This document shows positions 4,359-29,108 of a stretch of 64,000 nucleotides of DNA, piece by piece (positions within the stretch are counted from its first letter, which is position 1; every line of letters starts with the position of its first letter). This DNA is from a virus: IMG/VR virus record IMGVR_UViG_3300018055_000001, positions 122,880 to 186,879 of that record; one strand, written 5' to 3'. Under the pieces are notes generated by a model. The model was not told the DNA's origin. It did no database searches and saw only the letters and a program-made list of their open reading frames with translations. A program made the translations under genes and the position numbers.

Positions 4359-4383
4359 ATTGGGCATGCTACATATGCCCAAT
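4359..4383 (+). promoter_or_regulatory. Hairpin covering the HNH gene start codon
   Basis: A perfect 9-bp inverted repeat (ATTGGGCAT at 4359-4367, ATGCCCAAT at 4375-4383) with a 7-base loop. Its 3' arm includes the first two bases of the ATG at 4382, and no Shine-Dalgarno sequence is visible. It could hide the start and limit endonuclease translation, as known for some T4 homing endonuclease mRNAs. It may also act as a weak terminator for the upstream gene. Confidence 0.55.
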
Positions 4384-4915
4384 GTCAGGGCGTAAACCAG
4401 GCAGTAAGAACAAGCACAAAAAGATTTCAATCACAATGATGCCAGAACTCATAGATAGATACGGAAAAGGAGCTAGCACCGAGGAGTTGGGCGTCTGTGT
4501 CGGTGCGAGCGCTGGTACTGTGGCGACTTATTTGAAGCGAGCAGGAGTTGAGCTGCGCACCCCTGGCTTTCGTAAAGGCACAGACCATCATGCCTGGGCA
4601 GGTGGTCGTCATCAGGGGGATGACGGATACGTCCGTGTTTGGTTATCCGCGGGTGACCCATTTGTGGCCATGGCGCAACGGCATGGAGAGTGCGCTGGTG
4701 GTTATGTGCTTGAGCAACGTCTCGTGATGGCTCGCAAGCTTGGGCGTTTACTGCTTGATAGTGAGACGGTGCATCATAAGGATCTGGACCACGGCAACAA
4801 TGACCCTAGCAATCTTCAACTGAGACAGGGCAAGCACGGAAATGGGGGAGCTTTTCGTTGTTGCGACTGCGGTTCCCACAACGTAATTGCTGAAGAACTG
4901 GAAGAACCATCATGA
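4382..4915 (+). CDS. HNH homing endonuclease with N-terminal helix-turn-helix
   Basis: 177 residues. Residues 15-60 form a basic helix-turn-helix-like region (GASTEELGVCVGASAGTVAT). Residues 105-150 carry the HNH core: LEQRLVMARKLGRLL, then ETVHHKDLDHGNNDPSNLQL, where the HH...N pattern coordinates metal. A final CCDC segment could bind zinc. Such genes are mobile and cut intron-less or intron-bearing alleles. It sits between two genes of a coupled operon and ends in ATGA with the next gene. Confidence 0.85.
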   Translation: MSGRKPGSKNKHKKISITMMPELIDRYGKGASTEELGVCVGASAGTVATYLKRAGVELRTPGFRKGTDHHAWAGGRHQGDDGYVRVWLSAGDPFVAMAQRHGECAGGYVLEQRLVMARKLGRLLLDSETVHHKDLDHGNNDPSNLQLRQGKHGNGGAFRCCDCGSHNVIAEELEEPS

Positions 4916-5364
4916 TTCAAATCAACAAGTACGCCACGGTCACCGAAGCCAACTTCAAGATCCGTGGTGGCATCATTGGAGGGGTTCCGACGAATCAACC
5001 ATTTGAGAACTTGGTTGGCCTCGTTCTTACGCTCTCTTCCCCATCAGGGAGTTGTACTTTCACGCAGCCTTCTGGCACTGGCTACTTACAGCTGCGCTTT
5101 GCAGATGTGAAGTCCCAGATTGAGGCAGCGATTGCTGATGTCGAGGTCTGTACCATTGATAACAAACTCGGATTGGTGCGGAAGACTCATGGGGATAACA
5201 TTGCTATGGCAGCTCTTGATGAGCCTGCCCGAAGGATTCTCGGCTTTGCCAACAATGAAATTATTGTTGGACAATTCTTGAGTGGGCCCAGCGGATCAAA
5301 TCCAAAGTATCTGGAGTTTGTATCCGAGTTCGGCGCTATTTACATTTCCATCGAGGTGGACTAA
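4912..5364 (+). CDS. Beta-rich virion-region protein, unknown function
   Basis: 150 residues, coupled to the upstream HNH gene by ATGA and to the next gene by TAATG. It is mixed alpha/beta, with a Gly-rich start (RGGIIGGVP) and a repeated short-strand pattern resembling phage neck or tail-terminator proteins. The motif FADVKSQIEAAIADVEV may be a helix packing on a sheet. No confident family. Confidence 0.55.
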   Translation: MIQINKYATVTEANFKIRGGIIGGVPTNQPFENLVGLVLTLSSPSGSCTFTQPSGTGYLQLRFADVKSQIEAAIADVEVCTIDNKLGLVRKTHGDNIAMAALDEPARRILGFANNEIIVGQFLSGPSGSNPKYLEFVSEFGAIYISIEVD

Positions 5365-6467
5365 TGGACGCATTTCAAAGAGGTTTGAGTCGACCGATCC
5401 CCCTGGAGAAGGCAGCTTCGTTCTTTGTGGGGATGAAGACGTGGCAGCAGCCTGCTCCAGTGCATGCGCGCGGCATGAAGAAGGCAGCGGCTCAATCGAT
5501 GGAGTTGCCGCTTGATCGTTTTCGGAAGGTTGCCGCTGAGAACGAAGAGCCTATTCAGCCTGGTGCGGCGATGTCATCACCCACCCCTAATCGTGCCCCG
5601 GCGCAAGAGGAGTACTTGGCCAATGAGGCACAAGGCTTGGAAGCCGAGAACAACTCCGCAGTTGAGTACTACCAGAGTTTGCTCGAGCAACTGCGTGGTG
5701 AGGCAGCGACGGCGCAGCAGACTGCGCAGGAGGCAGAGGAGCGTGCTCAACAGCTGGAGGAAGCACAGGCCGAGCATGACAGTCAGGTGGCTGCTGCCCA
5801 GCAAGAGGGGCAGATCGCCCAGCAGGCTGCGATGCAGCAGGTTCAATCGGCGAATGCGGCTGCATCCACAGCTATGCAACAGGCTGTGGACGCAGAGAAT
5901 CGTGCGCTGCAGGCTAAGACGACTGAAACTACGGCCAAGATTCAGCAGCAACAGCTTCGAAGCCAGCTCCTCGATCTGGCCGCGCAAGGTTTGCCGGGAA
6001 CAGAGCCCGAGCTCGGTGATGAAGGAAATGCCGCCGAGGGTTTGGCTCCTGAGCAACCCCCGGCTACTGGCGCAGAGGCAGGTGCCGCGACGGGGGCAGA
6101 AGGTGCTGAAGGACAGGAGGCGACTGCCGCCGCTGGACCAGGTGCTGGAGGCTTGAATCAACAAGCTCAGGCGGCGAATGCCGAGGGCATGCCTGGCCAA
6201 GAAGCGTCTCCGGAAGCAGCCGGTGCCGCCGCTCCCGGCACGCAAGCTCAACCCCCGGGCGACACCTCTGGTGGAGTTGGTGCAGGATCAGGGGCTGGTC
6301 CCCAGACCAATACCGATGGGCAGCCGGCGCAGCCCGAGCAGGACCCCACGGCGAAGCGGCAAGGGCAGGTTTCCATCAAGGTGGGTCACTTCGGGAATCC
6401 CAACCTCATCTCCTTGCTTGACCGCTTGGAGGGTGAGCAGCGTCTCCCTTTAGCCGCGGGCAGGTAA
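5364..6467 (+). CDS. Coiled-coil virion-type protein (0-frame product of a frameshift gene)
   Basis: 367 residues. Residues 49-60 (LPLDRFRKVAAE) match the helix motif shared by many proteins here. Residues 85-210 form a long Gln/Ala/Glu-rich coiled coil, and residues 215-335 are disordered and Gly/Ala/Pro-rich. The zero-frame stop at 6465 lies 12 bases after a C CCT TTA slippery heptamer, so this is the shorter of two predicted products. The longer one runs to 6826. A scaffold-like or internal head role is possible. Confidence 0.8.
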   Translation: MDAFQRGLSRPIPLEKAASFFVGMKTWQQPAPVHARGMKKAAAQSMELPLDRFRKVAAENEEPIQPGAAMSSPTPNRAPAQEEYLANEAQGLEAENNSAVEYYQSLLEQLRGEAATAQQTAQEAEERAQQLEEAQAEHDSQVAAAQQEGQIAQQAAMQQVQSANAAASTAMQQAVDAENRALQAKTTETTAKIQQQQLRSQLLDLAAQGLPGTEPELGDEGNAAEGLAPEQPPATGAEAGAATGAEGAEGQEATAAAGPGAGGLNQQAQAANAEGMPGQEASPEAAGAAAPGTQAQPPGDTSGGVGAGSGAGPQTNTDGQPAQPEQDPTAKRQGQVSIKVGHFGNPNLISLLDRLEGEQRLPLAAGR

Positions 6468-6475
6468 AGTCTGCC
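6446..6475 (+). promoter_or_regulatory. Programmed -1 frameshift site C CCT TTA
   Basis: The heptamer at 6446-6452 is in the correct phase (X XXY YYZ) relative to the frame starting at 5364. A 6-base spacer follows, then a stem GGCAG/CTGCC (6459-6463 with 6471-6475) with a 7-base loop holding the zero-frame stop. Slipping back one base enters the frame of the next reading frame, which is open to 6826. The same heptamer, spacer length and context recur at 9447. Confidence 0.75.
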
Positions 6476-6826
6476 GGCCTCGGTCAGTACATGCGCAATC
6501 CTCGCGTCATCGGCGCGCTAGCCGGTGGCGCCCTTGCCGGTGGTGCGACGGCGCTCGAGGTATCTGGTCACGGTCCTTCATTGGATAAGCTGCGTGACCG
6601 CATCGCCGAGAAGGACACCAGGATGAAGCAGCCTGGCTTTCGAAACTTCGCACGCGTCATGGATCTGACACAGGATAAGGCGATGCTGACGCTGGGTGAG
6701 GCAGTTCAAGCGCACCCGTTTGCTTCAACGGCAGCCATGGGGGCCCTTGGTGCGGTTACCGGGGCTACATTGCCAGGGGAATTATCTGGGCTTTGGCGAG
6801 AGGCCAAGTCGTACCATAGAGGCTAA
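6452..6826 (+). CDS. -1 frame extension giving a Gly-zipper C-terminal domain
   Basis: Codons read after slippage at 6452; the fused product would be about 487 residues. The extension begins SRGQVKSAGLGQY, then has two glycine/alanine-rich hydrophobic segments (VIGALAGGALAGGATALE and AAMGALGAVTGATL) flanking a charged helix. These could be membrane-associating. The ATG at 6491 has no ribosome site, which argues against independent translation. Frameshifting would append a membrane-active domain to a fraction of the coiled-coil protein. Confidence 0.7.
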   Translation, partial: SRGQVKSAGLGQYMRNPRVIGALAGGALAGGATALEVSGHGPSLDKLRDRIAEKDTRMKQPGFRNFARVMDLTQDKAMLTLGEAVQAHPFASTAAMGALGAVTGATLPGELSGLWREAKSYHRG

Positions 6827-6832
6827 TTGGCC

Positions 6833-7450
6833 ATGTCTGTAGCTACTAAGAAATGTCCTAAATGTGGCGACGATAAACCAGCCACTGTTGACTTCTTTTA
6901 CAAGTTGAAGTCAAAGAGTCAAGGGTTGCGAAACCGAGATGGGTTACTTCTATCAAGCTATTGTCGTGAATGTACCAGGAGGTACAAGGCTGACTATTAT
7001 CGTAAGAATAGAGGTGATTGGGAGGTTGTTTATTCAGCTAGGAGGCTTGCTGTTAGAGGACAAACTAATGAGCAGGCGGCAGAGTATCGTAGGTTGAATG
7101 CTGACAAAGTTGCAGAGGCTCAGAGGCAAAGTGCTAGGAAGCACCCTAACACACGCAAAAATGGGCATCTGCGTAGAACTTATGGAATTTCAATTGATCA
7201 ATATCTGCAATTAGTCGAAGAGCAGCAAGGGACTTGCGCCATTTGTCTAGTAGTCCCTAATGGAAAACTTCAAGTTGATCACGATCACAACACTGGGAAA
7301 GTACGAAGACTTTTGTGTAGAGAGTGCAATTTGGGCTTGGGTAAATTCAGGGAAGATCCAAATTTGTTGATCAAAGCCGCAAGGTATTTACGTGAACACG
7401 TAGAAATGAGCACGTCTTCTGTGCTCCATATTGTAGGAGGTAAGGCGTGA
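6833..7450 (+). CDS. Endonuclease VII-like (HNH/ββα-metal) nuclease, probably mobile
   Basis: 205 residues from ATG 6833; a TTG at 6827 would add two residues. The C-terminal part matches the endonuclease VII fold: CAICLVV, then LQVDHDHNTGKVRRLLCREC and NLGLGKFREDPNLL. The four cysteines bind structural zinc and DHDH is catalytic. An N-terminal CPKCGD...YCREC zinc ribbon precedes it. Base composition is visibly more AT-rich than its neighbours, suggesting recent transfer as a homing-type gene. It interrupts two frameshift-bearing genes. Confidence 0.85.
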   Translation: MSVATKKCPKCGDDKPATVDFFYKLKSKSQGLRNRDGLLLSSYCRECTRRYKADYYRKNRGDWEVVYSARRLAVRGQTNEQAAEYRRLNADKVAEAQRQSARKHPNTRKNGHLRRTYGISIDQYLQLVEEQQGTCAICLVVPNGKLQVDHDHNTGKVRRLLCRECNLGLGKFREDPNLLIKAARYLREHVEMSTSSVLHIVGGKA

Positions 7451-9459
7451 TGTTCGACCAATGGGTAGAAGTTGCATACAGGCACAACCAAACCAAGACA
7501 GCCTCTCGCGAGCTCATCAACAAGATGAAGCTCTTGCCCCTTGACGAGCTCATCAAGGCGGCCGCTGGTGATCCGACTTCGAAGTTGGCCTACGTGGATG
7601 GGCCCGAGGACAAGCAATGGATCGACAAGTACAAGGGCACTCCCTTGTTCGAACAAGCTGTTGGCCTTGAGAAGGAGCTTCTCCAGATCGACATGCAGGA
7701 AAATGAAGAGCATGCCGCTCGTCGCGCCGAGGAGAAGGCTGAGGAACCTCGCACCAACTTCTACGACATGCGCGATGCCCTCAAGTTGAAGCAGCGCATG
7801 CTCGATCTCGAACTGGCGATATCCCAGGAAGGCGGAGGTGGTGCCGAGGCAACACCTGCTGTCAGCGTGGAACAAATCGCACCCCCTGCCGCCGCTGTTG
7901 GGCAGGCTCCAGCCCAACCCACAGAACCCGTGACAGCACCCAAGGTAGCGGGCCTCAATCCAAAGGCGCACGTTATGCGTTTCTACACGGATCCTGACTA
8001 CCGTGCCGCTTGTGAGAAGACGGCAGGTAGTGCGACGGGAACCTTCCTTCCTGAGACCCGCAGCACTGGCAAAACTCCCACGGATGACCGGGTACAGGGT
8101 GCCGGAGCTGGTAACTACACGCCTGAACCGTCTGAGACGGTCACTGGAAACATCCAGGTCGACAAGACTGCAGCAGCGGCAGATACCTTGAAGCGATACG
8201 GTCAGTTGGTTACAGGCAACAAGGCCAAGGAACTTGGTCAGACCGCTAAGGGCTGGACTCGTGCTGCGCGTTTGACAGAAGGTCGTCCTATCCATGATCT
8301 TGCGGCCCGTGCGGCAGAGCGTGTTGGATCCATGGCAAAGTCGGAGCGACTCAAGTCGCTAGGAACTCAAGCGGCCACTGCGGCTGGGGCCGGCGCAGCA
8401 GCGGCTGGGGTACATCATGCGGTGCAGCGTGAGAAAACGGCTACTCCATATGACGACTACACAAAGACGGAGTTGGCGCAAAGGCACCATGAGCGTAAGG
8501 CCAAGAGTGAAGAAACTCATCCGACAAGAACCCGTATTCTTGGGGCATTGGGAGAAGGTGCACGTCTTGGAATACCGTTAGGGTTGGGAAGCGCTGGCGC
8601 TGCTGCATTGTTGACGCGTGATCCTAGATTTGCGGCAGAGCAGGGACTGAAGGGCTTAGCTGTAGGTGGAGGTCTTGGCGCGTTGACTGGTGCGATGCGC
8701 ACCCCTGGCGCGTACGACAGAAGTATGTCTGAGATATACAGGGATGTGCTTTCCCCAGAGTCTATTCAGCAAGACGCTAACTTCACCCGGGAACTGGGTG
8801 AACACGTCAACAAGCATCCAACTCAGATTCGAGTGGCCAGAGGTGTGGGATTAGGAGCGGCTGGTGCCCTTGGCGGAAGGCTTATCGGTAAGCACTTCGG
8901 TCATCCGGATTTAGGAACTGCGATAGGGGCTGGGGCTGGTGGACTTTTGGGGGCATTGCCAAAGCCCAGCGGCAAAAAGCATATGGAGGATGCTGCTGAG
9001 ATAGAAAAGTACATGCAAACGCGCGGCATGCAGCCTGGAGCAGAGAAGCAGGCCAATGTACTTTTCACTACGGCGAGGGAGCACAAGGCCTTGAAGAAGG
9101 CTGCTGCGCTAACCCCCACGGATGAACGGGCGGCGGTCCACAAGGCTATCGCCGAGAAACATCCGGGGCTGGTATCTAAGCACCTACCTCCGAAGATAGC
9201 GGGTATTGGTGATGTGGTGAGCGCCGGCAAGAATCTGGCAACGAGTGCATTCAAGGGTGGTGGCATTGGACAAGTGGCTAAGTCCTTTGGGAATGTGGCT
9301 GGTGGTCTAGCCAAGGCGCATCCTCTGGCAACTGCTGGTCTCGCCGCTGGTGGCGGACTTCTCGCCGGTAAGATGTTGAGCCGCCCACAGCAACCCAAGC
9401 TGGCAGCAGTCAATTTGCGCGGCGTGGCGAAGGGCGCGCGCCAGCTCCCTTTAGGGTAA
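7450..9459 (+). CDS. Large Gly/Ala-rich virion-type protein (0-frame product of a frameshift gene)
   Basis: 669 residues from ATG 7450, with GGAGGT 8 bases upstream; it overlaps the previous stop as TGATG. Residues 27-38 (LPLDELIKAAAG) carry the shared helix motif. A disordered Pro/Ala region spans 130-180. Several Gly/Ala hydrophobic segments follow (for example GIPLGLGSAGAAALL, VGGGLGALTGAM, GLGAAGALGGRLIG, LAAGGGLLAG), so it may insert in membranes. It ends QLPLG just after a second C CCT TTA site. An ejection or internal virion protein is a reasonable inference. Confidence 0.8.
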   Translation: MFDQWVEVAYRHNQTKTASRELINKMKLLPLDELIKAAAGDPTSKLAYVDGPEDKQWIDKYKGTPLFEQAVGLEKELLQIDMQENEEHAARRAEEKAEEPRTNFYDMRDALKLKQRMLDLELAISQEGGGGAEATPAVSVEQIAPPAAAVGQAPAQPTEPVTAPKVAGLNPKAHVMRFYTDPDYRAACEKTAGSATGTFLPETRSTGKTPTDDRVQGAGAGNYTPEPSETVTGNIQVDKTAAAADTLKRYGQLVTGNKAKELGQTAKGWTRAARLTEGRPIHDLAARAAERVGSMAKSERLKSLGTQAATAAGAGAAAAGVHHAVQREKTATPYDDYTKTELAQRHHERKAKSEETHPTRTRILGALGEGARLGIPLGLGSAGAAALLTRDPRFAAEQGLKGLAVGGGLGALTGAMRTPGAYDRSMSEIYRDVLSPESIQQDANFTRELGEHVNKHPTQIRVARGVGLGAAGALGGRLIGKHFGHPDLGTAIGAGAGGLLGALPKPSGKKHMEDAAEIEKYMQTRGMQPGAEKQANVLFTTAREHKALKKAAALTPTDERAAVHKAIAEKHPGLVSKHLPPKIAGIGDVVSAGKNLATSAFKGGGIGQVAKSFGNVAGGLAKAHPLATAGLAAGGGLLAGKMLSRPQQPKLAAVNLRGVAKGARQLPLG

Positions 9460-9480
9460 AGGCCTTGGCGCACGAGGCCT
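9447..9480 (+). promoter_or_regulatory. Programmed -1 frameshift site C CCT TTA (second copy)
   Basis: The heptamer at 9447-9453 is in phase with the frame from 7450. A 6-base spacer contains the zero-frame stop, then a 6-bp stem AGGCCT (9460-9465 with 9475-9480) with a 9-base loop. The -1 frame is open to a stop at 9618 that overlaps the next start as TAATG, so the extension fits the operon's coupling pattern. Confidence 0.8.
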
Positions 9481-9620
9481 ACAAGAAGGGCGGTGTGCCA
9501 GAGGTCATAGGCACCTTCGAAGACAAGGGCATGGACGCCCTGCTTGGCTTGTCTAAGAAGTACGAGGGTGCCACAAAGAAGCTGCACAGCTTGGCTAATG
9601 CCACGAATCCTTGGTTGTAA
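9453..9620 (+). CDS. -1 frame extension of the large Gly/Ala-rich protein
   Basis: 55 extra codons, giving a fused product of about 723 residues. It begins RVKALAHEAYKKGG and ends LHSLANATNPWL, and reads like real protein (charged amphipathic helices). It fills an otherwise empty gap of 160 bases. Its stop TAA (9618) shares a base with ATG 9620 of the next gene. There is no start codon with a ribosome site inside it, so frameshifting is the best explanation. Confidence 0.75.
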   Translation, partial: RVKALAHEAYKKGGVPEVIGTFEDKGMDALLGLSKKYEGATKKLHSLANATNPWL

Positions 9621-11864: not shown

Positions 11865-14800
11865 ATGGCCGCAGAGTTACCCCGCCCAGGCGTTGAAGTA
11901 GTCCAAGTTATCCGCACAACTACCCCCTCGGTGGTTACTCCTACGCTCGTTCCTTGCGTTGTTGGAGTCGCCCGACAAGTCGTCGACCTGTTGGTTGATG
12001 ACGGCAGCGGTAGCAAGACGTTGAATGGAGATGCCCTCATTAGTTTGCCGGCATTCTTCCTTGCCAAAGCTGCGACAGGGAATCCTGCCGTTTACACAGG
12101 TTTGGATGGATTGCACCTGGTTTTCTCTCCGAACAATGGCGTCAACGTCGATGTGTTGTTCGCAGATACTACGATGGCTGGATTGACTCCGACCGCTGTC
12201 ATCAATGCCATCAATAGGGCATTGGCGGCCGCCGGTGTGACATCTGCCGTCGCTGAACTCATTGGCACCACCCAGTTCCGTCTTCGAACACTGGCTACTG
12301 GGCAGTATCAAAGTATCTTCATTGCTACGTCCACAAGCCCCGCAGTCTGTACTGCCTTCGGCATTGGCCCAGGTCGTAGCTACGATGGAGTTGATAACTA
12401 CAATCAGCTCGAGGAGTCGATTCCAGAGGTGAATTTGCCCGATCCGCGGGGCAATCTGGACGAGTTGGTGGTTGAGCCTGCCAGCATCCGTGTATTCTTG
12501 GCGATGTCCGCCTCGAACTTCATTGAAGTTCTTCGCACAGAAGCATTCTTGCGCAACGGCGCCGTCGATGGCCCCGCTGTACTAACCGGCACAGTGGATT
12601 TGACCACTCTGGACCTTGTACTTGGTGCAGATGTTGCCGGTAAGACCTTGATCATTTCCGTCGACAACACGGCAGCCCAGACAGTGCTGTTTACCACGTC
12701 GGAGACTTCAATCTCCTTGCTATTGGCAAAGATCGCCGCTGGAACCACGGGAATTACGCCCAGTGAAGACCCAACGACGCATTACTTGGTTCTCACCGAT
12801 GACTCGACTGGTGCTTCCGCGAGTTTGACCATTGGCGCGGGTACGGTGAATTCTACGTTGGGCTTTACCAATGGGGAAACCACAGCTGGTACTTCAATCG
12901 AAGTTATCGATGACGGAAATGGCGACAACTTCTCCCCGCTCATGAAGTTCCCGGGTGTGGACTTTACTGCCGTTGGCATTGTTGCCAGCATTGTGGGGAC
13001 AGTTGATATCTCAGGCCTCACGTACCCATTCGCGGGGCTAGAAAATAGGACGTTGGAGATCAGCGATGGTCAGCAGCTGCAGACTATCGTGTTCCCCGCG
13101 ACTATCCTGGCTAACTCGGCGGCGCTGCTGGCAGTGATCAATGATGTGATGGACACCTCCGCCGGCGGACGCCTGATTGCGACGTTGGACGGTGTCACTC
13201 ACTACTTGGTGCTGACTAGTACGGATACGGGAGCCGATGCCTTCATCTGGGTGAAGAGCGGAACTGCATTGTCTGTTCTTGGTTTCACTGCTGATACTCA
13301 GGCGCACGGATCTTTGGGCCATGCCGTTGCCGGCGATGAGCTGTTTGTCGACGGTATCTCGGCAGGGACCATTGTGGCTGTCGCGCCGGGCGGGCACGTG
13401 GACACGCTCAAGCTGAACAACCAGAAGGCATTGACCCTCGATTACGGTATGCACTGGTACATCACCGCCAAGAACTTGACGGGCACTGGTGTCGACCGAC
13501 CTACACCGAACTTGGTCGTGGACGCCAACGTCATGACCACCCTGAAGAACACCCTTCTTAGGGACACCAACGGCAATCCGGTCAGTCCCACTCAGGCGCG
13601 CGCGCCGGTGTACCTGTCCTACACGGCCATCCGTAAGGATGTGTCGGCGTCGGCCAGGAACGCCAGCCTTCTTCGGATCGACAACCAGACGCAACTCGAG
13701 TCGACATTGCCTCCGCTTACCACGGTGAACCCGTTGGGATTGGGTATGTTCTTCGCGCTGGTGAATGCACCTGGCGTTCAGATCACGGGCTTGGGTGTCG
13801 ATGGAGTGAGCGCGGACGAGCCGTACGGCACCGTCGAGGCCTTCAACAAGGCTGCAGAGTTCCTCGAGTCGTTTGAGGTCTATGGCCTGGCTCCTTTGAC
13901 GCATTCCCCTGAAGTTGGCCAGCTGTTCAATACGCATGTCAACTTTATGTCGGAACCCTCTGAGAAGGGCGAACGCATTGTGCTGTTCAACTCGGAGCAG
14001 CCCACCAATGCTCTCGACACGCTTGTCGGATCGGGCGGCAACGGCAACAGCGTGGGCACCGGTGGGTTGTCCTTCGACACGGGCATCCCAAATCTTTCGG
14101 CGCTGCTCCTCAATAAGGGCGTGAATTCGGTCGGCTCCATCGCCACCTCGGCCGGGGTGTTTTTGGACATCGCAAGCGATGCCAAGAACTACTCCATCCT
14201 ACAGGTCAATGGGTCGGTTGTTACCATCGCCATTACCTTCCTCCCGGGTACGAACGACGACGATTTCTATTCGACCACGCCGCTCAATACCCCACCGCTG
14301 CCCAGTCAGCTCATCCAAGAGGCCTTCGCGGTTCGTATCCGCGGCGCAGCCTTGGTGACTGCCGACGGCAGCCCGGACAAGAACGCCATCGCCTCTGCCT
14401 ACGCAGCGGTGAGCCAGGTCTACGGCAATCGGCGCTTCTGGCACACCATGCCTGACCAGTGTGCGTCGACCATCGGTGGAGTTGAGCAGGTGCTCGAGGG
14501 CTTTTACATGAACGCCGGCATCGTCGGCATGATTGGCCAACAGCCCCCGCAGCAATCCTTCACGAACTTCCCAATGGCCGGTTACACCCGTGTCATTGGG
14601 TCGACCAACTACTTCTCCGAACGCCAGATGAACGTCATGGCAGCGGGAGGTACCTACATCATCGTGCAGGACGCGCCAAGCGCACCGCTCATCGCGCGCA
14701 TGGCCCTCACCACCGACATGACCTCGGTGGAAACTCGCACCGACTCCATCACCAAGGTGGTGGACTTTACGGCGAAGTTCCTACGGCGCGGCCTGAAGAA

Positions 14801-15017
14801 CTTCATCGGTCGGTTCAACATCACGCAGGCCTTCCTCGATCAGTTAGGCACTGTGATAGGCGGCCTAGGTGGGTACTTGACGGAGGTCGGTGTCCTCGTC
14901 GGCTTCAACCTCAACAACATCATTCAGGACGAGCAGGCACCCGACACGGTGCTGATTGACGTCCTCATCGATCCGCCCTACCCCTGCAACTACATTCGAA
15001 TCACGCTGGTGATCTGA
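11865..15017 (+). CDS. Contractile tail sheath protein
   Basis: 1,050 residues, with a GGAGCC site. The start (RPGVEVVQVIRTTTPSVVTP) and the C-terminal 200 residues are typical of tail sheath proteins: RTDSITKVVDFTAKFLRRGL, a helix, and the final strands VLIDVLIDPPYPCNYIRITL that link neighbouring subunits. It is much longer than the usual 400-700 residues because three related domains are inserted at residues 75-176, 245-342 and 383-484. It defines the particle as a myovirus. Confidence 0.92.
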   Translation: MAAELPRPGVEVVQVIRTTTPSVVTPTLVPCVVGVARQVVDLLVDDGSGSKTLNGDALISLPAFFLAKAATGNPAVYTGLDGLHLVFSPNNGVNVDVLFADTTMAGLTPTAVINAINRALAAAGVTSAVAELIGTTQFRLRTLATGQYQSIFIATSTSPAVCTAFGIGPGRSYDGVDNYNQLEESIPEVNLPDPRGNLDELVVEPASIRVFLAMSASNFIEVLRTEAFLRNGAVDGPAVLTGTVDLTTLDLVLGADVAGKTLIISVDNTAAQTVLFTTSETSISLLLAKIAAGTTGITPSEDPTTHYLVLTDDSTGASASLTIGAGTVNSTLGFTNGETTAGTSIEVIDDGNGDNFSPLMKFPGVDFTAVGIVASIVGTVDISGLTYPFAGLENRTLEISDGQQLQTIVFPATILANSAALLAVINDVMDTSAGGRLIATLDGVTHYLVLTSTDTGADAFIWVKSGTALSVLGFTADTQAHGSLGHAVAGDELFVDGISAGTIVAVAPGGHVDTLKLNNQKALTLDYGMHWYITAKNLTGTGVDRPTPNLVVDANVMTTLKNTLLRDTNGNPVSPTQARAPVYLSYTAIRKDVSASARNASLLRIDNQTQLESTLPPLTTVNPLGLGMFFALVNAPGVQITGLGVDGVSADEPYGTVEAFNKAAEFLESFEVYGLAPLTHSPEVGQLFNTHVNFMSEPSEKGERIVLFNSEQPTNALDTLVGSGGNGNSVGTGGLSFDTGIPNLSALLLNKGVNSVGSIATSAGVFLDIASDAKNYSILQVNGSVVTIAITFLPGTNDDDFYSTTPLNTPPLPSQLIQEAFAVRIRGAALVTADGSPDKNAIASAYAAVSQVYGNRRFWHTMPDQCASTIGGVEQVLEGFYMNAGIVGMIGQQPPQQSFTNFPMAGYTRVIGSTNYFSERQMNVMAAGGTYIIVQDAPSAPLIARMALTTDMTSVETRTDSITKVVDFTAKFLRRGLKNFIGRFNITQAFLDQLGTVIGGLGGYLTEVGVLVGFNLNNIIQDEQAPDTVLIDVLIDPPYPCNYIRITLVI
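12087..13316 (+). repeat. Three related inserted domains within the sheath protein
   Basis: Approximate copies at 12087-12392, 12597-12890 and 13011-13316. Each has a hydrophobic first strand, a central helix (VINAINRALAAAG, ISLLLAKIAAG, LLAVINDVMD), then a strand pair and a final FGI or LGFT plus glycine turn. They are diverged at DNA level, so the duplication is old. They probably project from the tail surface. Confidence 0.6.
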
Positions 15018-27351: not shown

Positions 27352-28692
27352 ATGAAGCGAACACCAGGAAGTGTGACGGATCCAGGCGGGCCAGGTATTG
27401 CCCCAACCACCTCGATACGAGACAAGAACAACCCCACACAGCTGGGTCCTGACCCGCGCGGCCCGCGGCAGCCATTCGTCGATCCTGCGGTGGCCGACCC
27501 GGTGGCCATCAAGTATGCGCAGGGCGCAGAAGGGCGTCGACGCAATGCTCCGGCGCCGATTCCACGCTATTCGGAGCCTGTAGCCGGTGGGCCAGATCTG
27601 CCCATTCCTCATTTAGGAAGTGACGCCACGGATGGAACGATGGCCGATCAGGCGCGTCGACAGCGCGGGCTCCCACAGCCTGGGCTCATCCCTGATCTCA
27701 ACTCGGTGTTGGCCACGATGGGCAATGAACCAGCATTGCAGAGGGGTGGCCCCGGGATTGTGGCGGGTGATGCCCATCATCAAACTCCCGCAGCACCCAA
27801 CGCTTTGTCGCAAAACCTTCCTCCTAGCTTGCGTCGGGACGACATGCTGCCGGAGCAAGCCACTAAGGACCCGACCTTCCAACAGGGTCCAGGCAGTATG
27901 TACGCGGCGAACCAGCCCGCATTGGCTCTCAAGTACGGTGTCATGCGCAACAAGCAGTTCATTCCCCCGCAACAGCTAAAGTCACCGGCGGTACCGGGTG
28001 GGCTTCGAAGTGAGACCGTAGCTGGTCTGCAGGCGCTGGAAGAGTTTCAAACTCAACGTAGGCAGGTTGAGTCTGGTGACGCCGCGGTGGATAGGCAAAT
28101 CGCCAAAGAGGCTGCCGCTGGCCCAGCCGGTGGCGCTGGTACGACGGAAAAGCCTCTTACCGACGACGACAAGAAGCAGCTACTCGACGATATGGACGAG
28201 TTCCAGCTAAGTCGATTGAAGAACGCTCTCTTCAAAGACATGCTCAATAACGATGAGCAGCGCGCGATCATTGAGGCACGGCTTGCCCCGTTGGACCTAA
28301 GCGACTTGATTGTGACGGGTCGCTGCTCTCAGCTTGTTCCCATCCATCCAGGTGTATTTGAGGCGGAGTTCCAGTCGTACGCGTCAGAAGAAGATCTCCG
28401 GGTCAAGCGCATGATTGGAGAAGAGGCCGCCTCGTTGCGCCCCAGTGACCGTTACTTGATGGACAAATACCATTTGATGGGGCTCACCATCGCTATCGCC
28501 GCCATCAACAAGCGGCCGCTTCCAGACTATCGAGATGCCAAGGGTGACTTCGATGACGACAAGTTCTGGGTGAAGTACGGGATTGTCGCTCGGTTCAACT
28601 ACCACATGATGGCCAGTTTGATGGTCAATTGGTTTTGGTTCGACATGCGCGTGCGAGAGCTGTTCCGCGCGGAGGCACTGGGAAATGGATAG
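27352..28692 (+). CDS. Tail assembly chaperone, 0-frame product
   Basis: 446 residues, with AGGAG upstream. Residues 1-250 are disordered and Pro/Gln/Gly-rich. Residues 275-440 are folded and helical: DLIVTGRCSQLVPIHPGVFE then a strand and helices, resembling the N-terminal chaperone fold of tail assembly proteins. It ends EALGNG at a G GGA AAT slippery site. Tail chaperones of this kind bind the tape measure and come in short and frameshifted forms; the long disordered N-terminus is unusual. Confidence 0.75.
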   Translation: MKRTPGSVTDPGGPGIAPTTSIRDKNNPTQLGPDPRGPRQPFVDPAVADPVAIKYAQGAEGRRRNAPAPIPRYSEPVAGGPDLPIPHLGSDATDGTMADQARRQRGLPQPGLIPDLNSVLATMGNEPALQRGGPGIVAGDAHHQTPAAPNALSQNLPPSLRRDDMLPEQATKDPTFQQGPGSMYAANQPALALKYGVMRNKQFIPPQQLKSPAVPGGLRSETVAGLQALEEFQTQRRQVESGDAAVDRQIAKEAAAGPAGGAGTTEKPLTDDDKKQLLDDMDEFQLSRLKNALFKDMLNNDEQRAIIEARLAPLDLSDLIVTGRCSQLVPIHPGVFEAEFQSYASEEDLRVKRMIGEEAASLRPSDRYLMDKYHLMGLTIAIAAINKRPLPDYRDAKGDFDDDKFWVKYGIVARFNYHMMASLMVNWFWFDMRVRELFRAEALGNG

Positions 28693-28765
28693 AGACCCCC
28701 GAGGGCTGGGCGCAGGCAAATCTACTGCTTGCGACTCTGAGGGAGCCGCCACCTCGGGGGTCTCT
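28680..28765 (+). promoter_or_regulatory. Programmed -1 frameshift site G GGA AAT with a 13-bp stem
   Basis: The heptamer at 28680-28686 is in phase with the frame from 27352, directly before the stop codon TAG (28690). Four bases on, a perfect 13-bp stem starts: 28691-28703 pairs with 28753-28765. Its loop of 49 bases contains further pairing (GGCT with AGCC, and CGCAGGCA with TGCTTGCG). The heptamer class is the one used by lambda G-GT. Confidence 0.88.
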
Positions 28766-29108
28766 TCAATCTTACGTATTGCAGGCTCTCCTCATACGCA
28801 AAGATCAGATCGAGTACATGCGCACGCGCGCAGTCGTACAAGCTCTGGTGAACAAGGACGAAGCGCAGAAGGCACTTGACGCATATCGCGATGCCCAAAT
28901 GCCCTACCTGCAGGGAGTTCAGAAGAATGACAGACAGCAGCACATCAAACGCCTCATGGACGAAGTCGCCAAAGGTGCGATCAGCGTTACGCCGATCATG
29001 CCCAAGCAGGTGCGTAGTCGTCTCAAGACGCGTGTCGTGCAGCGCACGACTGAGGAACAACTTGCCCAGTCACGCCGGCTGTCGAAGCAAATGGGAGGTC
29101 TCTTGTGA
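28686..29108 (+). CDS. Tail assembly chaperone, -1 frame extension
   Basis: 140 codons, giving a fused product of about 585 residues. Begins WIETPEGWAQANLLLATL and has long helices (IRKDQIEYMRTRAVVQALVN, LMDEVAKGAI). A separate start would have to lie inside the upstream gene with no ribosome site. By analogy with lambda gpGT, the extension would recruit tail tube subunits to the tape measure. The stop overlaps the next GTG start. Confidence 0.8.
   Translation, partial: WIETPEGWAQANLLLATLREPPPRGSLQSYVLQALLIRKDQIEYMRTRAVVQALVNKDEAQKALDAYRDAQMPYLQGVQKNDRQQHIKRLMDEVAKGAISVTPIMPKQVRSRLKTRVVQRTTEEQLAQSRRLSKQMGGLL

Follow-up and report, generated by a model that had tools for sequence, protein, structure and literature searches.

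Two neighbouring genes in a metagenomic virus genome stop just past the same heptanucleotide, C CCT TTA, and behind each stop an open frame continues in the −1 register. The question raised by this locus is whether ribosomes are programmed to slip there and, if so, whether both the short and the long proteins are wanted or the long ones only. The window analysed here is a stretch of 64,000 nucleotides, bases 122880-186879 of a 186,879-base virus record. Judged from the sequence, programmed −1 frameshifting at C CCT TTA in both genes is highly probable. That both short and long products are wanted appears to be the better answer to the second part, but we hold it with only moderate confidence, as one product suffices in sister phages.

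The window carries a capsid gene at 1323-2441 (PHROGs: major head protein), and its gene at 11865-15017 is related to one that carries a tail sheath annotation in Bacillus phage G. On account of these capsid and sheath-type genes the phage is placed, by sequence, among the large myoviruses, with Salmonella phage Arash and Vibrio phages D69, D148 and D181 as distant relatives. Among named phages only the sheath and the capsid reach Arash and the Vibrio phages; no DNA match to the region and no match to gene 2 were found in named phages, and a sheath profile search of bacterial genomes found no prophage relative. Genes 1 and 2 lie between the capsid and sheath genes and form, together with a gene of about 150 aa, a block (window 4912-9620) between homologues of Arash gp233 and gp234. 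These two genes adjoin each other in Arash, and their counterparts are adjacent in Vibrio phage D69 too. Since gp233 and gp234 are adjacent in Arash and were both detected in its virions by mass spectrometry, the block is an insertion into a virion gene cluster. The presence of the flanking homologues in Arash virions makes the term "virion-type", used for both genes in the original prediction, a reasonable if indirect one, and both proteins may act in assembly or as internal or neck-associated proteins. Free-standing HNH or endonuclease VII-type genes are inserted in the head-tail block at window 4382-4915 and 6827-7450. The latter, of endonuclease VII type (Pfam Endonuclease_7), lies between genes 1 and 2 and is absent from L003 and L004, the two nearest relatives.

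With gene 2, gene 1 and the sheath as queries, the loci L003, L004 and L014 were obtained first and then 37 loci; the comparison covered about 25 related viruses. A tree was built from 35 sheath proteins, the window's among them, in which L009, L008 and L018 are on the contigs of L004, L003 and L014, respectively. The window, L009 and L008 form a fully supported group, and next to it come L018 and the pair L017/L021.

Gene 1 (5364..6467, plus strand) encodes a short 0-frame product of 367 aa, coiled-coil and Ala-Gln-Gly-rich, in the head-tail block, and its central region is present in about 27 loci. As predicted originally, the gene ends just past an in-phase C CCT TTA (6446..6452): its end reads CGT CTC CCT TTA GCC GCG GGC AGG TAA, with the 0-frame stop TAA at 6465-6467. 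The identical heptamer is found at L003:7598 and L004:7598, and at the homologous place L014:11116. The −1 frame tail (6446..6826, plus strand), a putative Gly-zipper/helical C-terminal domain, comprises 124 codons after Pro-Phe and closes with TAA at 6824-6826. Both L003 and L004 share the heptamer and the open −1 frame with the window, with tail identities of 61% and 79%, respectively. In these two phages and in the window the −1 frame opens just three codons before the heptamer, and therefore a shift in gene 1 must fall within that stretch. The 0-frame protein of gene 1 gave no PHROGs match, and neither the gene nor its tail gave a Pfam match; the structural model of the tail consists of helices at low confidence (pLDDT 69), with no PDB match.

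A profile of the gene 1 tail recovers the C-terminus of the gene 1 protein in about 20 further loci, always in the same frame as the rest. Because the tail is in frame in these relatives, it is most simply read as the ancestral, ordinary C-terminus, the derived product in the window's clade being the short form. The original prediction had spoken of new C-terminal domains, a description that does not fit gene 1, whose tail is the standard C-terminus of about 20 relatives. In the window's clade a stop codon interrupts what is a one-piece protein elsewhere, and the tail would be reached only by slipping.

Gene 2 (7450..9459, plus strand) encodes a Gly-zipper-rich 0-frame short product of 669 aa, whose N-terminal part of about 125 aa is conserved in about 31 loci. 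Its end reads CAG CTC CCT TTA GGG TAA, with the heptamer in phase at 9447..9453 and the 0-frame stop TAA at 9457-9459. The heptamer is identical at L004:9662 and is CCCTTTT at L003:10223. The −1 frame tail (9447..9620, plus strand) has 55 codons after Pro-Phe and its stop TAA at 9618-9620; as noted before, it ends in TAATG, overlapping the ATG of the next gene at 9620. Gene 2 of L004 is arranged as in the window, and its tail is 82% identical to the window's. In L003, where the tail is 69% identical, an additional T in gene 2 (CCCTTTTAG; CTCCCTTTTAGG) lets the gene continue in one frame into this tail. The tail was found only in the three-phage clade of the window, L003 and L004. No PHROGs match was obtained with the 0-frame protein, a Pfam search gave only weak Gly-zipper matches, and the N-terminal domain was modelled as helical at low confidence, with no solved relative found. 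Since the gene 1 tail is in frame in about 20 relatives and the gene 2 tail in L003, both tails genuinely belong to these proteins.

The open frames of 124 and 55 codons are conserved as protein in L003 and L004, just as their protein-like appearance had suggested. For the two tails dN/dS is about 0.05-0.2 with synonymous sites near saturation; between the window and L004, dS is 1.4 and 2.6 and dN 0.14 and 0.13. Substitutions between the same two phages in the −1 frame of gene 1 number 20, 14 and 64 at the first, second and third codon positions, so that third positions are favoured. This pattern, together with a low dN/dS at near-saturating dS, indicates that the −1 frames encode protein under purifying selection. 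Within the three-phage clade there are six homologous sites; the heptamer itself is identical at five, and the remaining one is the CCCTTTT of gene 2 in L003, which is in frame. The slip site has thus persisted across a divergence that scrambles synonymous positions not under selection.

Could the heptamers stand at both gene ends by chance? The bare heptamer is neither rarer nor commoner in the window than chance (4 found, 4.3 expected), and what is unusual about it is its position, not its frequency. The 10-mer CTCCCTTTAG, in contrast, occurs exactly twice on the plus strand of the whole 187-kb record, once at the end of gene 1 and once at the end of gene 2, which upholds the claim of one signal in two nearby genes. 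Window positions 6445-6469 and 9446-9461 resemble one cassette: gene 2 has CTCCCTTTAG followed by GGTAAAG, and gene 1 has the same with nine bases between. This likeness suggests that the cassette was copied from one gene to the other. A search of IMG/VR with the DNA patterns of both cassettes recovered only L003 and L004 plus three chance matches without reading frames. The two genes had also been called related, which the comparison did not support: the proteins showed no similarity by BLASTP, nor did the tails by profile comparison.

Each gene was then considered for the elements known to stimulate slipping. An SD-like GGAGG (6428..6432, plus strand), missed in the earlier reading, lies 13 nt 5' of the gene 1 heptamer, with the same spacing in L003, L004 and L014; in these four phages its pairing with the anti-SD is within the top 1.4-2.5% of in-gene positions. 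For gene 2, the window has a weak SD-like AAGGG (9430..9434, plus strand) 12 nt 5' of the heptamer, and L004 and L003 have AAGGAG 10 nt upstream. The corresponding anti-SD pairing ranks at 28% in the window, which is not above background, at 3.9% in L004, where it is clear, and at a marginal 6.4% in L003. Such upstream elements are common at −1 sites but not obligatory. The published distance of SD-like elements for −1 shifts is 9-14 nt (PMC5009743), a range that holds the 13 nt of the four gene 1 sites and the 10 nt of two gene 2 sites. On the downstream side, a spacer of 6 nt and a short stem had been predicted for both genes. For gene 1 both are found: the stem GGCAG/CTGCC (6459..6475, plus strand) starts 6 nt 3' of the heptamer, spans the 0-frame stop TAA and is shared in sequence and spacing by the window, L003 and L004, although its fold is only modestly above background and, for the window and L004, does not exceed that of 19-30% of in-gene windows. 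For gene 2, the proposed AGGCCT/AGGCCT stem has to be given up: L004 and L003 lack it, and folding of the window sequence itself predicts another structure. The predicted stem is instead TGGCGCAC/GTGTGCCA (9466..9500, plus strand; MFE z = −2.6), which is partly kept in L004; the downstream fold here is stronger than 99.4% of in-gene windows. Downstream folds are thus strong at gene 2 of the window, and also at gene 1 of L014 and gene 2 of L028 described below, and ordinary at gene 1 of the window and L004.

These elements allow a simple mechanism to be proposed. Most ribosomes would stop one to four codons past the heptamer and release the short protein, while a fraction would slip from CCT-TTA to CCC-TTT and add the C-terminal tail. 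The slip in gene 1 would probably be stimulated by the GGAGG together with the short downstream hairpin, and that in gene 2 by the upstream AAGGAG, weak in the window, together with the downstream stem. The slipping itself, its efficiency, the function of both products and their presence in the virion are what we infer here. On the most economical reading, assembly of the virion calls for both proteins in short as well as long form.

The relatives bear on this, since slippery sites of two polarities may occur among them. In the window, in gene 1 of L003 and in L004, the default product would be short and the −1 shift would give the long one; in gene 1 of L014 and gene 2 of L003 the default would be long and the −1 shift would give the short one. 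Gene 1 of L014 is in frame (490 aa), and its junction reads CGC CCT TTA CCT AAG with an in-phase C CCT TTA, from which the −1 frame would read CCC TTT ACC TAA and stop one codon on. This heptamer is the only in-phase X XXY YYZ of that gene, and the other in-frame gene 1 homologues examined have no heptamer at the junction. TTA accounts for 2.1% of Leu codons and CCT for 26% of Pro codons; estimated from this codon use and the preceding C, C-CCT-TTA would arise by chance at the L014 Pro-Leu pair in about 0.2% of cases. GGAGG is again 13 nt away, and the next 48 nt fold above 99.4% of in-gene windows. Gene 2 of L003, likewise in frame, keeps C CCT TTT, and its −1 frame CCC TTT TAG stops at once; this is weaker evidence, as the slippery site follows automatically from the insertion of one T.

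The original prediction would be undermined, it had been stated, by close relatives that have both genes but lack the heptamer or an open −1 frame. Such a loss was found in part: gene 2 of L003 and gene 1 of L014 are in frame, and both keep a slippery heptamer. Their polarity would accordingly be inverted, the site itself not lost, and this suggests that having two products matters and not merely the repair of a frame. We put forward, tentatively and as somewhat less probable than its opposite, that unrelated neighbour genes are kept as short/long pairs by one cassette, that selection maintains both products without fixing the default, and that the default is flipped by one-base changes at the slip site or near it. 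In that case the short/long ratio of both proteins would be an assembly parameter in these large myoviruses. Two products seem not to be needed across the whole group, since gene 1 of the sisters L017 and L021 is in frame without a slippery heptamer and gene 2 of L014 has neither tail nor signal. It also counts against the proposed frameshifting that the default-short arrangement is seen in three phages only, that gene 2 of L003 departs from it, that the gene 1 hairpin is ordinary in the window and L004, and that the SD-like element of gene 2 is weak in the window. Furthermore, little precedent was found in the literature for C CCU UUA as a proven bacterial shift site, and the paper found, on Giardiavirus, doubts it as a shift site there.

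The main alternative is that slipping merely repairs the frame. An ancestral one-base deletion would have occurred by a shift-prone site, the long protein alone would matter and the short one would be a by-product; indel repair by frameshifting is a recognised category (PMC5009743). It would agree with this that nearly all relatives make just an in-frame long gene 1 protein, and that the one-T insertion in L003 puts gene 2 back into one frame. However, a rescued indel is easily mended, whereas here two unrelated genes carry one and the same signal across near-saturating synonymous divergence. L014 keeps the heptamer, the SD-like element and the immediate −1 stop despite an intact frame, and correctly spaced SD-like elements are hard to explain as an accident. 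Repair as the sole reason for the sites is therefore unlikely in our estimate, though it is the rival that survives best. In addition, the tails might be separate small proteins made from an internal start by translational coupling, with no frameshifting at all. Coupled genes with an SD before the stop are common, and in the tail frame of gene 1 in L003 a possible start is indeed present, GGAGG-7 nt-ATG two codons before the slip site. In the window, by contrast, ATG, GTG and TTG are missing from the gene 1 tail frame ahead of the slip and over the next 15 codons; in L004 they are missing ahead of it and over the next 28, and the gene 2 tail frame of L004 has no start codon for 16 codons, yet the codons in these stretches are conserved. 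For gene 1 of the window and L004 internal initiation is excluded by this lack of start codons, and the tails are fused to the upstream protein in relatives, so that separate small proteins seem very improbable. Lastly, sequencing or assembly error or gene decay, which might be thought of because these are metagenome contigs and one of six homologous sites departs from the others by just one T within a T run, can scarcely be credited when the same heptamer stands at five sites in three separately assembled genomes, three-T runs are not error-prone and both tails are under purifying selection.

The two-product reading finds a parallel in E. coli dnaX (tau/gamma), where an X XXY YYZ heptamer likewise follows an SD-like element and precedes a hairpin, here a predicted one, and where the default and frameshift products differ by a C-terminal part. 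The dnaX arrangement proper, with a long 0-frame product and a −1 stop directly after the site, would be that of gene 1 of L014 and gene 2 of L003 only, and the window has it reversed; reversed polarity is known for a few bacterial dnaX genes (PMC5009743). The phage genes differ from dnaX in that they do not encode a clamp loader, in that the site is C CCT TTA and not A AAA AAG, and in that both polarities would occur here among close relatives, in two neighbouring genes. Frameshifting in phage coat and tail genes is a second likeness, with virion genes making a short form and a C-terminally extended form: examples are T3/T7 gene 10, Lactobacillus phage A2 and Listeria phages A118, A500 and PSA, and in A2 and the Listeria phages two frameshift events occur in one phage (PMC5009743). 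Those systems concern the major capsid protein or the major tail protein, and the extension is often Ig-like. Here, instead, the signal would serve two accessory proteins, encoded between genes of head-completion type and the sheath gene, with helical or Gly-zipper tails and one common signal sequence. The lambda G/GT chaperone is similar in that a minor fusion arises by −1 frameshifting close to where the upstream ORF ends, but genes 1 and 2 are upstream of the sheath and adjoin no recognisable tape measure, and neither matched a chaperone family in PHROGs or Pfam. Few systems of phage virion-gene frameshifting outside the tail chaperones are known. In this one a recent origin may be readable within one phage group, which holds single in-frame genes and slip sites of either polarity, and the choice between two products and frame repair can thereby be tested by comparison and simple reporters.

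Both strands of the genome were scanned for ORFs of at least 80 codons in which an in-phase X XXY YYZ stands no more than 45 nt from the stop and the −1 frame extends at least 20 codons beyond it. Eleven candidates were obtained, most of them in unlikely frames, and three are backed by comparison: gene 1, gene 2 and a site at 28680. In a frameshift scan of the relatives, the matches in L021, L023, L035, L039/L042, L046, L049 and L051, judged by their coordinates, were rejected as shadow frames within longer genes or as downstream frames having an ordinary start of their own. The third site (slip 28680-28686, window 27352-29107) is far more widely conserved than those of genes 1 and 2. Its gene (27352-28692, 446 aa) ends CTG GGA AAT GGA TAG, and the 142-codon −1 frame is conserved in 4 close and 11 distant relatives. 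At the junction, the 14 of these that were read have their heptamer, either G GGA AAT or A AAA AAT, in one fixed position and a 0-frame stop one codon later, and several have no −1 start codon before it. The upstream protein gave no PHROGs, Pfam or PDB match; the gene may be a tail chaperone-like gene. Standard gene calling would overlook some 180 conserved protein-coding codons in genes 1 and 2 together with this third frameshift product.

Another site is present in gene 2 of L028 (6294-7774; also L029 and L030, which have identical sheath sequences and represent one phage). This gene is split elsewhere, at C CCA AAA at 6785, the rest being in the −1 frame; an SD-like sequence precedes the site, and a strong hairpin (z = −3.9) follows it immediately. 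As this site is independent of that in the window, −1 sites seem to have arisen more than once in this gene pair.

Finally, short basic motifs recur in gene 2. Ten [KR]-x-A motifs were counted in window 7450-9456, where 3.9 are expected by shuffling (p about 0.01), and both frameshift tails start with a similar V-K-[SA] motif. These are possibly processing or interaction motifs.
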